The translations under genes were made by a program, and so were the position numbers. The notes under the pieces were generated by a model, which worked only from the letters and a program-made list of their open reading frames with translations, was not told the DNA's origin and searched no databases. Shown here piece by piece: positions 1 to 25,857 of a stretch of 64,000 nucleotides of DNA (position 1 is its first letter; the number at the start of each line of letters is the position of its first letter). The stretch lies in NCBI GenBank assembly GCA_023515795.1, contig JALGPX010000042.1, positions 1 to 64,000 on the forward strand. The letters run 5' to 3'. The DNA comes from Amoeboaphelidium occidentale. Its lineage: Eukaryota > Aphelidiomycota > Aphelidea.

Positions 1-180
1 AAGCGAAATTTGACTCTTCTGACAGTTATAGTTTGCATCACCAGAATTCTATTCAGCCATTCAGTAATTTTATCTGCGCGGATTGGTATTTTTATTTGAA
101 ATAAAAATTCAGTTTTGCCTTGACCGACCGGTGACCAGTCCAGGTTTCGACTAAGTGTTTGGGTGACCAAAAGCAATTTT
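1..180. repeat. Dispersed repeat, copy 1 (cut by the window edge)
   Basis: This stretch matches 23220-23399 almost base for base in the same orientation, with a handful of substitutions and small indels. Both copies stop being alike just after the shared gggtgaccaaaa motif. Copy 2 lies beside the Fanzor-type remnant, so copy 1 is probably the same end of a second element whose body lies to the left, outside the window (inference). It ends shortly before the stop codon of the ADAM-like gene. Confidence 0.8.
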
Positions 181-193
181 ATTTTATTATTTA

Positions 194-21579: not shown

Positions 21580-22488
21580 TTAAACAAAGTAAAGCTTGAA
21601 AGGGATCTTCCACTGCTGTAGCATCATTGAGCGGTTTGTTTTCAATAGATCAAACTTGTTCTGCTCCAATAATTTCAGGTATATTTTAGAATGAAGTGTA
21701 AACAGTTTGAGGAACTTTGCTTCCTTATTCAATGCGTCTTCATCCGCATGCTTCATCATATGGGAGTGAGCACGAGACGAAATATCAAACACGAGATTAG
21801 ATAATTGCTCCTGGAATCTCTCGTTAGCAACCTGTTTCTGCTTGAAGAATCGAAGGTAATCAGTCGTTGAGATCGAGTGTTTCACCATCGTTTCAGCGGG
21901 TAAATAAATCAGATTTTTGAGTGAATTATGCTGCGCTGCCCTTAGCGTTTGAACGAGGCCTATTGCTTTTCCCAAATGACTTGCGATATGGTCTAAGTGA
22001 GACGATTTATGCCCAAAAGACTCCAAAGTCAAATAAAGCATACATGACTGAGTATTTTCAAGATAATCTTCCAAGTCTTCTTCGGAGTAATACTGTCTCA
22101 CGCCCAAGTTAGCCTCTCTGGCATTCAAAATCTTCAGGAACCACGACTTTGAGAGTTTCTTGTTATGATCACAGTTCGCAAGAGTATCATGAAGTGCAAC
22201 AAGGACAGGATTTTCTGGAGGCTTCCCTGCATAAGTATCATTCAGCGCCTGCTTCCACCACAATATTCTCATCTTTCCTACTTCGTCTTTGCTCACAATA
22301 TCGCGTATCATCGATGTTTCCGCATTAAATGCTCTGATAACCCATTGTGCTCTCATCGCGCTCTGGTCCTTCAAGTATAATGATGACAAATATGCATCAG
22401 AGTCCATCCTCTTTGTTAAATCTCTACAGTATTCCAAAGCTGAAGCACGTGAACTTGCAAAGCGCTTGAACAAGCCCCATTTCATCAT
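21580..22488 (-). CDS. NDUFAF6: NDUFAF6-like complex I assembly factor (squalene/phytoene synthase fold)
   Basis: A single exon of 302 residues. The chain has the squalene/phytoene synthase fold without its catalytic Asp motifs: RDLTKRMDSDAYLSSLYL, AQWVIRAFNAE, MRILWWKQALND, YSEEDLEDYLENTQSCMLYLTL, HLGKAIGLVQTLRAAQHN and LIYLPAETM all match NDUFAF6. A basic N-terminus (MMKWGLFKRFASSRASAL) fits mitochondrial import. The family supports assembly of NADH dehydrogenase (complex I) through the ND1 module. Its presence suggests that this organism has complex I. The 5' end of the coding region is partly repeated after the N at 22624, and a Fanzor-type element end lies immediately upstream. Confidence 0.9.
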   Translation of the reverse strand: MMKWGLFKRFASSRASALEYCRDLTKRMDSDAYLSSLYLKDQSAMRAQWVIRAFNAETSMIRDIVSKDEVGKMRILWWKQALNDTYAGKPPENPVLVALHDTLANCDHNKKLSKSWFLKILNAREANLGVRQYYSEEDLEDYLENTQSCMLYLTLESFGHKSSHLDHIASHLGKAIGLVQTLRAAQHNSLKNLIYLPAETMVKHSISTTDYLRFFKQKQVANERFQEQLSNLVFDISSRAHSHMMKHADEDALNKEAKFLKLFTLHSKIYLKLLEQNKFDLLKTNRSMMLQQWKIPFKLYFV

Positions 22489-22623
22489 TTTCGACAGATA
22501 ACTTTATTTTGTGAATAAAAAAAGCTGCGTCTTTTATGCAGCGGTCACATTTTTTTGGCTCAGACTTGCCTACTGAAACTCGGGTGTCTTTCTCCGGTTA
22601 AAAAGTAATGAACCGCGATATTA
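22455..22623. repeat. First copy of a 170-bp direct duplication ending at the N
   Basis: This block and 22625-22794 align over their whole length. The first 62 bases (the NDUFAF6 5' end and leader) are identical, while the remaining part, which belongs to the Fanzor-type element end, differs at roughly a dozen sites. The reverse strand of both copies ends a protein frame ...HYFLTGERHPSFSRQ with the last residue Val here and Leu in the other copy. Confidence 0.9.
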
Positions 22624-22624
22624 N
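22624..22624. other. Ambiguous base N, probable assembly join
   Basis: The only N in the window, placed exactly at the junction of two near-identical 170-bp blocks. The simplest reading is that two contigs were abutted here without merging their overlap. Confidence 0.9.
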
Positions 22625-22794
22625 TTGCAAAGCGCTTGAACAAGCCCCATTTCATCATTTTCGACAGATAACTTTATTTTGTGAATAGAAAAAGCTGCGT
22701 CTTTTATGCAGCGGTTACTGATTTTTTGACTCAGAGTTGCCTACTGAAACTGGGGTGTCTTTCTCCAGTTAAAAAGTAATGAATTGTGATATTA
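22625..22794. repeat. Second copy of the 170-bp direct duplication
   Basis: Matches 22455-22623 as described there. It continues without a break into the Fanzor-type remnant, so this copy is the one physically joined to the rest of the element in the assembly. Confidence 0.9.
22694..22712 (-). other. Hairpin at the element's 3' end
   Basis: gctgc (22694-22698) and gcagc (22708-22712) form a 5-bp stem with a 9-nt loop; the same hairpin is at 22524-22542 in the first copy. It lies about 20 bp past the stop codon of the Fanzor-type frame. In TnpB and Fanzor elements the guide (omega) RNA overlaps the 3' end of the nuclease gene and ends at the element boundary, so the position is right for such an end (inference). 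Confidence 0.4.
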
Positions 22795-22980
22795 GCCATG
22801 TTAATTGCTGCTGAAACATCCTTATTAACAATGAGATCGTGTCCAATTGAAGTCTTGCAATCTTTACACTTCCACATTCTAGTTCCTTCATTACCGTGCT
22901 TTTCAAGAGGGTTAAAGCACATTGGGCAATTCTAAGAAGTCCAAAATCTCTGAGCAACGATGGGCTTAGTATATAAATCA
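22731..22980 (-). pseudogene. C-terminal fragment of a Fanzor/TnpB-like RNA-guided nuclease
   Basis: The reverse-strand frame reads CPMCFNPLEKHGNEG, then WKCKDCKTSIGHDL, then NKDVSAAINMANI, then YFLTGERHPSFSRQ. This is the C-terminal zinc ribbon (CxxC...CxxC) followed by the conserved Asp-x-x-Ala-Ala-Asn-x segment that carries the last RuvC acidic residue in TnpB/Fanzor proteins. The closing GERHPSFSRQ resembles the G-x-x-R-P end of fungal Fanzors. Upstream, a frameshift near 22935 separates it from RDFGLLR in another frame, and beyond that stops appear in all frames. The N-terminal part and the first RuvC motifs are absent, so the copy is dead. Low similarity makes the Fanzor1/Fanzor2 assignment uncertain. 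Confidence 0.6.
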
Positions 22981-23219
22981 CTCAATGATTAAACCCTCAT
23001 AACATTAACAACTCAGTGCTATTGTCTACGAGATTTTAATCCATCTCTGTGTGCGTGGATCAATATAGGGTACTATCGCAGAAAAACAGCAGCAAAAACG
23101 ATGTTCTCAATGATTGCCATGCTCAGTCCAGAGTGCTGACTGACTTAGGAGAATATCCTGCGGTCTCTCCTGAGGTTGTTCTCCTTTGTGAGTGCTGCTG
23201 ATTACTTGATTCTTGTAAC

Positions 23220-23399
23220 AAGCGAAATTTGACTCTTCTGACAGTTATAGTTTGCATCACCAGAATTCTATTCAGCCATTCAGTAATTTTATCTGTGCAG
23301 GTTGGTATTTTTATTTGAAATAATATTCTTGTTTTGCCTTGACCAACCGGTGACCAGTCCAGGTTTCGACTAATTGTGTGGGTGACCAAAAATTTTTTA
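23220..23399. repeat. Dispersed repeat, copy 2
   Basis: Near-identical to 1-180. It ends only a few bases before the first plausible PFK start codon (23403), so it probably supplies the core promoter and leader of PFK. Read on the reverse strand, it would be the 5' end of the Fanzor-type element. Confidence 0.85.
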
Positions 23400-23402
23400 T
23401 TG

Positions 23403-25857
23403 ATGACCGCAGCAATGAAACAAATGACAGCGGAAAGAGGCTTCATGTCGAGCCCTTTACAAACTACACCAGCGGTTGTTAAGCGCAATATTGCAATTAT
23501 AACTTCTGGAGGTGATGCGCCTGGAATGAATGCAGCGGTAAGATCAGTCGTTCGTATGGCTTTAGTTCGTGGATGCGCTCCTTACGGTGTTATCGATGGG
23601 TATCAAGGGCTCGTGGATGGTAATATAAAGCTGTTTGCGTGGAAGGATGTTCAGGGTATTTTGTCACAAGGAGGCACGGTAATTGGAACAGCACGTTGCG
23701 CAGAGTTCCGTGATAGAAGCGGAAGATTAAAAGCCGCCAAAAATTTAGTTACGATGGGCATTGATGCTTTGGTTGTTATTGGGGGTGATGGAAGCTTGAC
23801 TGGTGCTGATACTTTCCGTTCTGAGTGGAAGTCTCTGTTGGAAGAATTGGTGAAAGCTGGTGAGATTAAAGAAGAAGATTCTCTGCGCCACGAGCATTTA
23901 TCGATTGTTGGTTTAGTCGGAAGTATTGATAACGATATGGCAATGACTGATTTAACTATTGGTGCTGTTTCAAGTTTGCACAGAATTTGTGAAGCGGTTG
24001 ATTGTATCTCATCTACGGCAATATCACACCAGAGAGCATTTATCATTGAAGTGATGGGAAGACACTGCGGTTGGTTGGCTGTCATGAGCGCGATCGCTAC
24101 AGGTTCTGACTGGTTATTCATTCCAGAGAATCCTCCTAAAGAAGGATGGGAAGATGAAATGTGCAGGCAATTGAAAGAGCACAGAGATATGGGTAAAAGA
24201 AAAAGTATTGTCATTGTCGCAGAAGGTGCTGTTGACCGCAATTTGAATCCCATTAAGGCTGACTACATCAAGGAGTTGTTAACAAACAAATTGAAGTTTG
24301 ATACAAGAGTTACAACCTTGGGACATGTGCAAAGAGGAGGATCGCCTTCTGCTTTAGATAGAGTTATTGGAACTGTTCAAGGTGTTGAAGCTGTAGAAGC
24401 CATTCTTCAAGATACTCCAACATCTGAAACACCTTTAATTGGTGTCGCTCAGAACAGAAGCAATATTGTGCCGTTGATGGAGGCAGTGAAGAAAACAAAG
24501 GAAGTTAGTCAAGCTATGAAAGACAAAAACTGGGACTTGGCTGTGGAATTGAGAAGCCCAAAATACAGGTCTGATATTGACGCATTCTTTGAAACTTCTG
24601 GTAAACGCACAGAACAACTACCATTGGGAAAGGTATGTTTTAAGTATTTCATTGATTTTTTAGAGAATCAACATTGCAATCTTGCACTGTGGTGCTCCGG
24701 CTGGAGGAATGAATATGGCAACAAGAGCTCTGGTGAGAATGGCTTTGAACAGAGGTCATAAACCATTGCTTGTTCATAACGGCTTCAAAGGACTTATTGC
24801 TGGTGATGTTCATGAGGTCAAGTGGATGGATGTGGAAAATTGGAGCGTAGAAGGAGGCTCTAGGCTAGGAACTAACAGGTCTCAACCAGGAGACGACTTG
24901 TCGATGTGTGCATATCAACTGCAAAAGTTCAATATCGGCGCATTGGTTATCGTTGGCGGCTTTGAAGGATTTAATGCTGCGTGTGAGCTTTATGAAGCAA
25001 GGAAAAACTTTGTGAGTTTTTGCATTCCTATTATGCTTATTCCTGCCACTATATCCAATAATGTTCCTGGAACTGATTTCTCTTTAGGTTGTGACACTGC
25101 GTTGAATGTTATTATTGAAGCATGTGATTGTATTAGACAGTCGGCTCATTCATCAAGAAAGAGAGTTTTTGTCGTGGAAGTCCAAGGAGGAGAGTGCGGT
25201 TATTTAGCTACAGTAGCAGGACTGGCTTCTGGTGCAACTTGTGCTTACATCCCTGAAGAAGGTTTGACTTTGGAAATGTTAAGTAGAGACTGTAAGCATC
25301 TTATCAAGCAATATTCCGATGGAGAAAATCAAGGAAGAGTCATTCTGAGAAATGAAAGTGTTTCAAAGACTTACACGACGGAAGTTGTTTCCAATATTTT
25401 TGCCGAAGAAGGAAAAGGGTTGTTTGACTCCAGATCTTCGATTTTGGGGCATATTCAACAAGGTGGCTCGCCTTCGCCCTTCGACAGAGTGCGCGCAGTG
25501 AATTTCGCTGTGAGGACCGTAAAATGGATCGAGGATTTTGCTCTTGGCTCTATTGAAACTCATGAGAAACATTTGAATACTGGCAAGGCAGAGAAATTGG
25601 AAGCAGCTATCGAATCTCCATGTGGATTATCAAACGTCGACGAAGCAAGAGTTGATTTAGTCGCAAACGGTATTTATACAAATGTGCCAGAATCCGCTGC
25701 TGTCATTGGTTTAAGTGAGGGTAAAGTACATTTTCCGTCTGTGGCGTCTTTAATACCAGAGACTGACTTTAAGCTTCGTAAACCGAAACATGCTGCCTTC
25801 AAAGAATTGAATGAACTTATTAGAGTGTTGGCAAAATACGGTTATGAAGAAAACTAA
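23403..25857 (+). CDS. PFK: ATP-dependent 6-phosphofructokinase, two-lobed eukaryotic type
   Basis: Catalyses the committed step of glycolysis, fructose 6-phosphate to fructose 1,6-bisphosphate. Exons 23403-24632 and 24664-25857 (intron 31 bp, between the two lobes) give 807 residues. The N-lobe has [27 protein letters not shown] and the catalytic SIDND; the usual Gly-Thr-Asp after it reads MAMTD. The C-lobe repeats the fold with [11 protein letters not shown] and [14 protein letters not shown], as expected for an allosteric half. The yeast N-terminal glyoxalase-like extension is absent, so the layout resembles animal and chytrid enzymes. ATGs at 23403, 23415, 23424 and 23445 are all possible starts. 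The stop overlaps that of the lipase gene. Confidence 0.95.

Follow-up and report, generated by a model that had tools for sequence, protein, structure and literature searches.

A repeated, putatively non-autonomous element with a probable Fanzor-derived tail in the aphelid Amoeboaphelidium occidentale

Fanzors, relatives of Cas12-type nucleases found in eukaryotes, are carried by transposons for reasons that are, to our knowledge, unsettled. The guide (omega/re) RNA of TnpB/Fanzor elements overlaps the gene at its 3' end. The closest precedents for the element described here, MCi-2 of Mucor circinelloides and the CRe-1/2/3 Fanzor1 Helitron2 elements of Chlamydomonas reinhardtii, are those of Bao and Jurka (2013; PMC3627910), a paper which, like the others cited, is drawn on here in excerpt. 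According to such excerpts, the scaffold of the RNA stops where the element stops, with the flank acting as the guide (PMC10711439, PMC10432273), and Fanzors carry the signature DPG-x(120-160)-E-x6-CxxC-x(12-18)-CxxC-x(4-8)-D (PMC10711439). Aphelids are described, in the source excerpted, as parasitoids of algae, and our literature searches returned no paper joining Fanzor and aphelid.

The window, i.e. the whole 64,000-nt stretch of DNA analysed, lies in the 11.3-Mb genome of Amoeboaphelidium occidentale (204 contigs; Aphelidiomycota according to NCBI). The element and its surroundings contain the following features:

22679..23395, minus strand, putatively non-autonomous, probably Fanzor-derived element of family A, ~0.72 kb, with ends taken from the comparison of copies
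23396..23401, minus strand, left AATAAA hexamer, preceding the left-end core by 14 nt
23126..23398, minus strand, left part of the element, open for 91 codons
22932..22934, minus strand, in-frame TAG ahead of the ribbon (FWTS*NCPMC)
22734..22931, minus strand, Fanzor-like C-terminus of 66 codons (zinc ribbon, NKDVSAAIN, GERHPSFSR), matched by family profile
22694..22712, minus strand, right-end hairpin GCTGC-ATAAAAGAC-GCAGC with a 5-bp stem and a 9-nt loop
22673..22678, minus strand, right-end AATAAA hexamer, in the same orientation as the left one
22455..22623, minus strand, another partial copy of the tail with flanking sequence, next to the N at 22624
23376-24761, plus strand, ORF of a phosphofructokinase (PFK) gene, one neighbour of the element
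22488-21580, minus strand, gene with a squalene/phytoene-synthase domain, the other neighbour

A sequence-only reading had described a Fanzor/TnpB remnant at 22683-23399, and these limits almost match the ends obtained by comparing copies (~23395-22679), which lie between the AATAAA hexamers. The zinc ribbon, NKDVSAAINM block and GERHPSFSRQ end that it reported are all present on the minus strand (22931-22734), as is the small hairpin after the tail (22712-22694). The minus frame translates to NCPMCFNPLEKHGNEGTRMWKCKDCKTSIGHDLIVNKDVSAAINMANITIHYFLTGERHPSFSRQL, with the order NCPMC...WKCKDC...NKDVSAAINM...GERHPSFSRQL, and closes with TGA; the left-end core, GGTCACCC, begins at 23387. The reading that the rest of the nuclease gene is gone was borne out as well, since the DPG motif of RuvC-I, which the signature places 120-160 residues before E, is absent from the 464 nt before the ribbon in all three minus-strand frames, and the longest frame of the left part has no Pfam match. 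This left-part frame was found again in other copies, several of them with stops. In the ribbon itself, the spacing of 16 between the CxxC pairs fits the signature, while the D follows after 12 residues, outside the range of 4-8, and the E(alt) position, six residues before the zinc finger, is occupied by R. Nuclease activity of the window copy can thus be excluded, as it lacks the RuvC-I motif, has Arg at E(alt) and is interrupted by a stop ahead of the ribbon.

The two neighbouring genes are head to head, and the window copy abuts the start of the PFK gene head-on instead of lying behind a stop codon. Around the single N at 22624, the tail is partly duplicated (22455-22623 vs 22625-22794). 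This duplication was read as an assembly join of two overlapping, diverged contig ends, not as biology, because N joins with repeated sequence also occur at another locus (L085). Also on the minus strand, at window positions 1-188, a second family-A left end (L035) runs off the contig start; its core lies 25 nt behind the stop of a reprolysin-like gene.

Genome searches returned 31 DNA matches to the element (query and partial copies counted) and 24 matches to a 63-aa peptide (query and its duplicated tail counted). The hairpin pattern, with up to 3 mismatches allowed, gave 17 hits, of which this locus accounts for two, whereas its reversed control gave 0; these features are therefore beyond chance. 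C150 and C96 match almost the whole element at 86-87%. The locus is not the lone remnant that had been supposed: unlinked copies have their ends in common with it, and together they make up a repeated, apparently non-autonomous family. Family A comprises the copies in the window, C150, C96, C12, C74, C57, C29 and others, with the left end GGTCACCCAAACA or a variant. Family B (C67, C56, C159, C162 and C72) has a 5' body unlike that of A, but the two have in common the 3'-terminal ~260 bp, which span the ribbon and the right end. Family C carries a near-full-length Fanzor gene, broken by assembly joins in some copies, and a different right end. This gene follows a B-type 5' part in C188, C12 and C173 and an A-type left end in C29; by locus, the family-A left end precedes it in L086 and the B-type left end in L085, L087 and L088. 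Left ends are thus common to families A/B and the family-C Fanzor elements, whereas right ends differ. In L085, L087 and L088, a degenerate A/B zinc-ribbon segment (~478-636 of the element query) was also seen upstream of the family-C gene.

As to coding constraint, the pooled pN/pS of the ribbon frame in five copies was 0.33, vs 0.51-3.78 in the other five frames, and variable sites per codon position numbered 15/4/18, which hints that the ribbon may have been translated for part of the family history; against this, L005 and L006 as a pair gave 1.16, close to neutrality, and phase scanning of the whole element gave a weak signal. In a comparison of A with B over 15 copies, conservation was 0.85 in the last ~90 nt and 0.78 in the ribbon region, and with so slight an excess a sharply conserved RNA at the element end is not claimed.

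That the host genome has Fanzors, as the sequence-only reading proposed, was supported by many Fanzor-type matches, near-full-length genes among them. PF07282 gave 142 genome matches at E <=10, of which 84 exceeded the cut-off, two of these only with neighbours; the matches take in exon pieces and assembly duplicates and are not a gene count. They fall into several groups with different tails, each with its own right ends. In the ORFs of the loci examined, 26 tails with distinct contexts fit E-x6-CxxC...D, and 4 of the 26 also have DPG at 120-160 residues. Among six predicted Fanzor proteins, P0002, from the L087 locus of family C, fits the DPG-to-D signature, as family C does in L085 and L087, where RuvC-I is retained. 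P0002 matches PF07282 at 3.5e-8 and gave weak PDB matches (a transposase, best, at 0.014; eIF2-beta, 0.063; Parasitella Fanzor1, 0.19), and shares 37% identity over 287 residues with L067, which itself matches Parasitella Fanzor1 and SpuFz1 in the PDB at E ~0.003. Intact copies had been suggested to lie elsewhere; near-full-length Fanzor genes are present, but for the exact subfamily, with a ribbon of the type seen in the window, the searches turned up no intact full-length parent. The nearest relative found outside the family, L021 (G000:C93:1413-1598), is 39% identical and itself degenerate; its 111-codon frame encodes a diverged Fanzor-like tail in which the long loop before NK(D/Y) is the same as in the element, E is kept at the E(alt) position and Y stands in place of D.

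Candidate mobilising enzymes were sought by profile. The genome gave 0 matches to the tyrosine recombinase PF00589, which was detected in 14 of 14 prokaryote controls; Crypton PF16787 gave none over the cut-off and Helitron PF14214 gave 0, with no control genome detected by either profile. The sole match to the serine recombinase PF00239 (G000:C172:89432-89881) is a candidate TnpA for a Fanzor2-like group (L055-L063).

Left ends could be located in 15 copies, of which 9 belong to family A and 6 to B/C. We found that AATA(A/G)A lies 13-20 nt before the left-end core in 13 of these 15, against a background of 108/5430 windows of 20 nt in the loci used (2%); the two misses are near-matches, AAGTAAA and AATAAGA. 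Fourteen of the 15 copies start 8-48 nt past the stop codon of an open frame that runs in the same direction and has at least 99 codons, the window copy being the exception, and in five of these 14 gene-end loci an antisense frame of at least 80 codons is also near. Of the upstream neighbours, 12 of 14 were scanned and 11 of the 12 had a Pfam match (e.g. importin-beta, DOP1, myotubularin and protein kinases). The corresponding proportion was 19/51 for AATARA in the window outside ORFs when overlap with the stop was allowed, against 14/15 copies (P ~1e-5), and 9/41 when overlap was barred, against 9/10 copies (Fisher 1.3e-4); as the hexamer overlaps the stop codon in three copies, which the 9/41 null omits, the 19/51 null is the fairer. 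Because of this overlap, the insertion may itself have supplied the stop codon in some copies. Besides targeting, selection against insertions elsewhere may contribute to the gene-end bias.

Left and right flanks of the same copy share 4-20 nt in 13 copies, at least 9 nt in four of them, with a mean of 8.3 vs 6.1 for mismatched pairs and none of ~2000 permutations as high; the stretches were hand-picked around the hexamer, and one of the 13 pairs joins two C12 hits assumed to be one insertion. Most pairs share little beyond the hexamer, and the only direct repeats longer than the best chance match (10) are two of 15 and 20 nt. The hexamer recurring at both ends probably belongs to the target and not to the element, but, with no empty site seen, it may instead be part of these ends. 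Among ten further copies that lack a sharp left end, one has AATARA within 70 nt upstream; by eye, it spans the junction in two more, L034 and L039, and is lacking in L038. For the G2 Fanzor family, the position of the left ends could not be fixed.

AATARA was also considered as a poly(A) signal, which was not borne out: for the 41 window ORFs of at least 150 aa, it occurred within 60 nt after the stop in 9 sense and 9 antisense cases.

These sites suggest an unusual landing rule, apparently new here, of an AATAAA-like hexamer behind a stop codon with co-orientation, which looks like a safe haven. Among titles and abstract starts of the literature matches listed, no AATAAA or behind-stop transposon target was described, and those pairing Fanzor with a polyadenylation signal concern, by title and abstract, other subjects.

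As to the tail, scans of the 66 aa as a single protein were weak and could not separate Fanzor from other zinc ribbons. PF12760 (E 0.032) and PF07282 (E 0.036) tied in Pfam, and in NCBIfam IS256_N_4Cys (1.8e-4), IS1249 (2.8e-4) and IS1_IS1595_Zn (0.0021) ranked above guided_TnpB (0.062). A PDB search with the family profile A3 returned no Fanzor and nothing relevant, and these results would accord with a ribbon unrelated to Fanzor/TnpB, e.g. IS256- or IS1595-like, whose likeness to Fanzor is superficial. However, the IS256, IS1249 and IS1595 matches span just the two cysteine pairs (residues 1-32 at most). The PF07282 genome scan, reaching upstream of the ribbon, scored this place in the window at 22.1 bits (E 0.0016), below the 26.3-bit cut-off. 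The family profile was decisive: six family-A copies, with stops entered as X, aligned in hhalign to nine Fanzor-type tails of the same genome at 96.3% over 63 columns, with an E of 1.7e-9 that holds for that single comparison. The best values in shuffle controls were 4% in 60 column shuffles and 49% in 60 shuffles keeping the cysteines. The alignment is collinear from QRFWTS/DEFRTS through GERHPSF/GVRPGKF, and it is the T-S, D-x-x-A-A-x-N and G-x-R matches outside the cysteines that lift it to 96%; left ends are, moreover, common to the element and Fanzor genes. An unrelated ribbon is accordingly considered very improbable. The Fanzor/TnpB-type C-terminus named in the sequence-only reading holds up on this alignment, although the profile check of the 66 aa alone ranked other ribbons as high or higher, and C-terminal RuvC-III/zinc-ribbon homology indicates that the tail derives from a Fanzor-type gene.

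Given that origin, the missing body and the stop preceding the ribbon would also be expected of a simple decayed Fanzor gene that lost its body at this locus only. Yet the left part, the ribbon and the stop at the same place recur at loci with different flanks, so the gutting predates the spread, and a purely local decay is quite improbable. In alignment A3, each of the six family-A copies is interrupted by a stop ahead of NCPMC (a TAG in the five for which the bases are known), from which the same order of events follows; this stop could be a putative intron acceptor (TTCTTAG). A SINE-like retrotransposon, reverse-transcribed by a LINE enzyme, would likewise have a fixed 3' end with variable 5' ends and direct repeats, and several copies do consist of the 3' part only, with shared flank lengths varying from 4 to 20 nt. 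On the other hand, reverse transcriptase RVT_1 has just 2 matches in the genome, the right ends examined bear no A-tails, the sharp left end is kept in 15 copies, and a similar pattern results from the one-ended transposition described for Fanzor Helitrons in the excerpt of PMC3627910; we regard a SINE-like origin as improbable.

We therefore consider it likely that the locus is a short non-autonomous transposable element that arose by internal loss from a Fanzor1-type transposon and subsequently spread. It would have kept both ends of the transposon and, between them, the 3' part of the Fanzor reading frame. This part was probably retained because the guide (omega/re) RNA overlaps it and has a scaffold that reaches to the element boundary. 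An enzyme that recognises the ends probably acted in trans to multiply the copies, which would have integrated beside the AATAAA-like hexamers, mostly just past stops and in host-gene orientation. The family-C Fanzor elements, having the same left-end types and the same kind of site, would be the best partner candidates. On this account, the aphelid genome holds both Fanzor-type matches and gutted derivatives keeping the end expected to make the guide.

The hairpin is a plausible guide-RNA end, as both it and the retained 3' end fit a guide RNA whose scaffold, in the cited Fanzor work, ends at the element boundary. In 14 copies, 94.3% of cells were paired, the same value as in shuffles, with no covariation, and Rfam gave one hit far below its gathering score. 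A more speculative proposal, which taken as a whole we think doubtful, is that i) AATAAA would serve this Fanzor family as a target-adjacent motif or as the seed of the guide, ii) the right end of each copy would print a putative guide from the AATAAA behind the element, so that Fanzor cutting would steer or maintain elements in host-gene 3' ends, and iii) the non-autonomous copies would be guide-RNA donors for the family-C Fanzors. If this were true, the elements would ride host transcription while the poly(A)-signal-like hexamer is left unbroken.

Compared with the known systems, as far as the excerpts describe them, the element resembles MCi-2 in that subfamilies share a 3' region and differ in their 5' regions, the exchange of 5' parts among A, B and C being of the same kind (PMC3627910). 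The 11-12-bp direct repeats and fixed AT-rich motif ATAATTNNNN of MCi-2 also have their likeness here, as may its lack of TIRs. In contrast, MCi-2 is ~6 kb long with a Fanzor gene whereas families A and B have none, and the motif here is AATA(A/G)A, with copies behind stop codons (PMC3627910). Like CRe-1/2/3, the element is putatively non-autonomous, with terminal hairpins, 5'-truncated copies, direct repeats (~7-19 bp in CRe-1/2/3) and a fixed motif beside the left end, but the CRe elements follow TTTT and have a known related Helitron (PMC3627910), whereas the PF14214 search, which detected no control genome either, gave no Helitron Rep here. Finally, L067 links this genome to SpuFz1 and Parasitella Fanzor1 (PDB 8gkh, 9cf0; PMC10432273), from which the window copy differs in having no DPG in its remaining part and R at E(alt).
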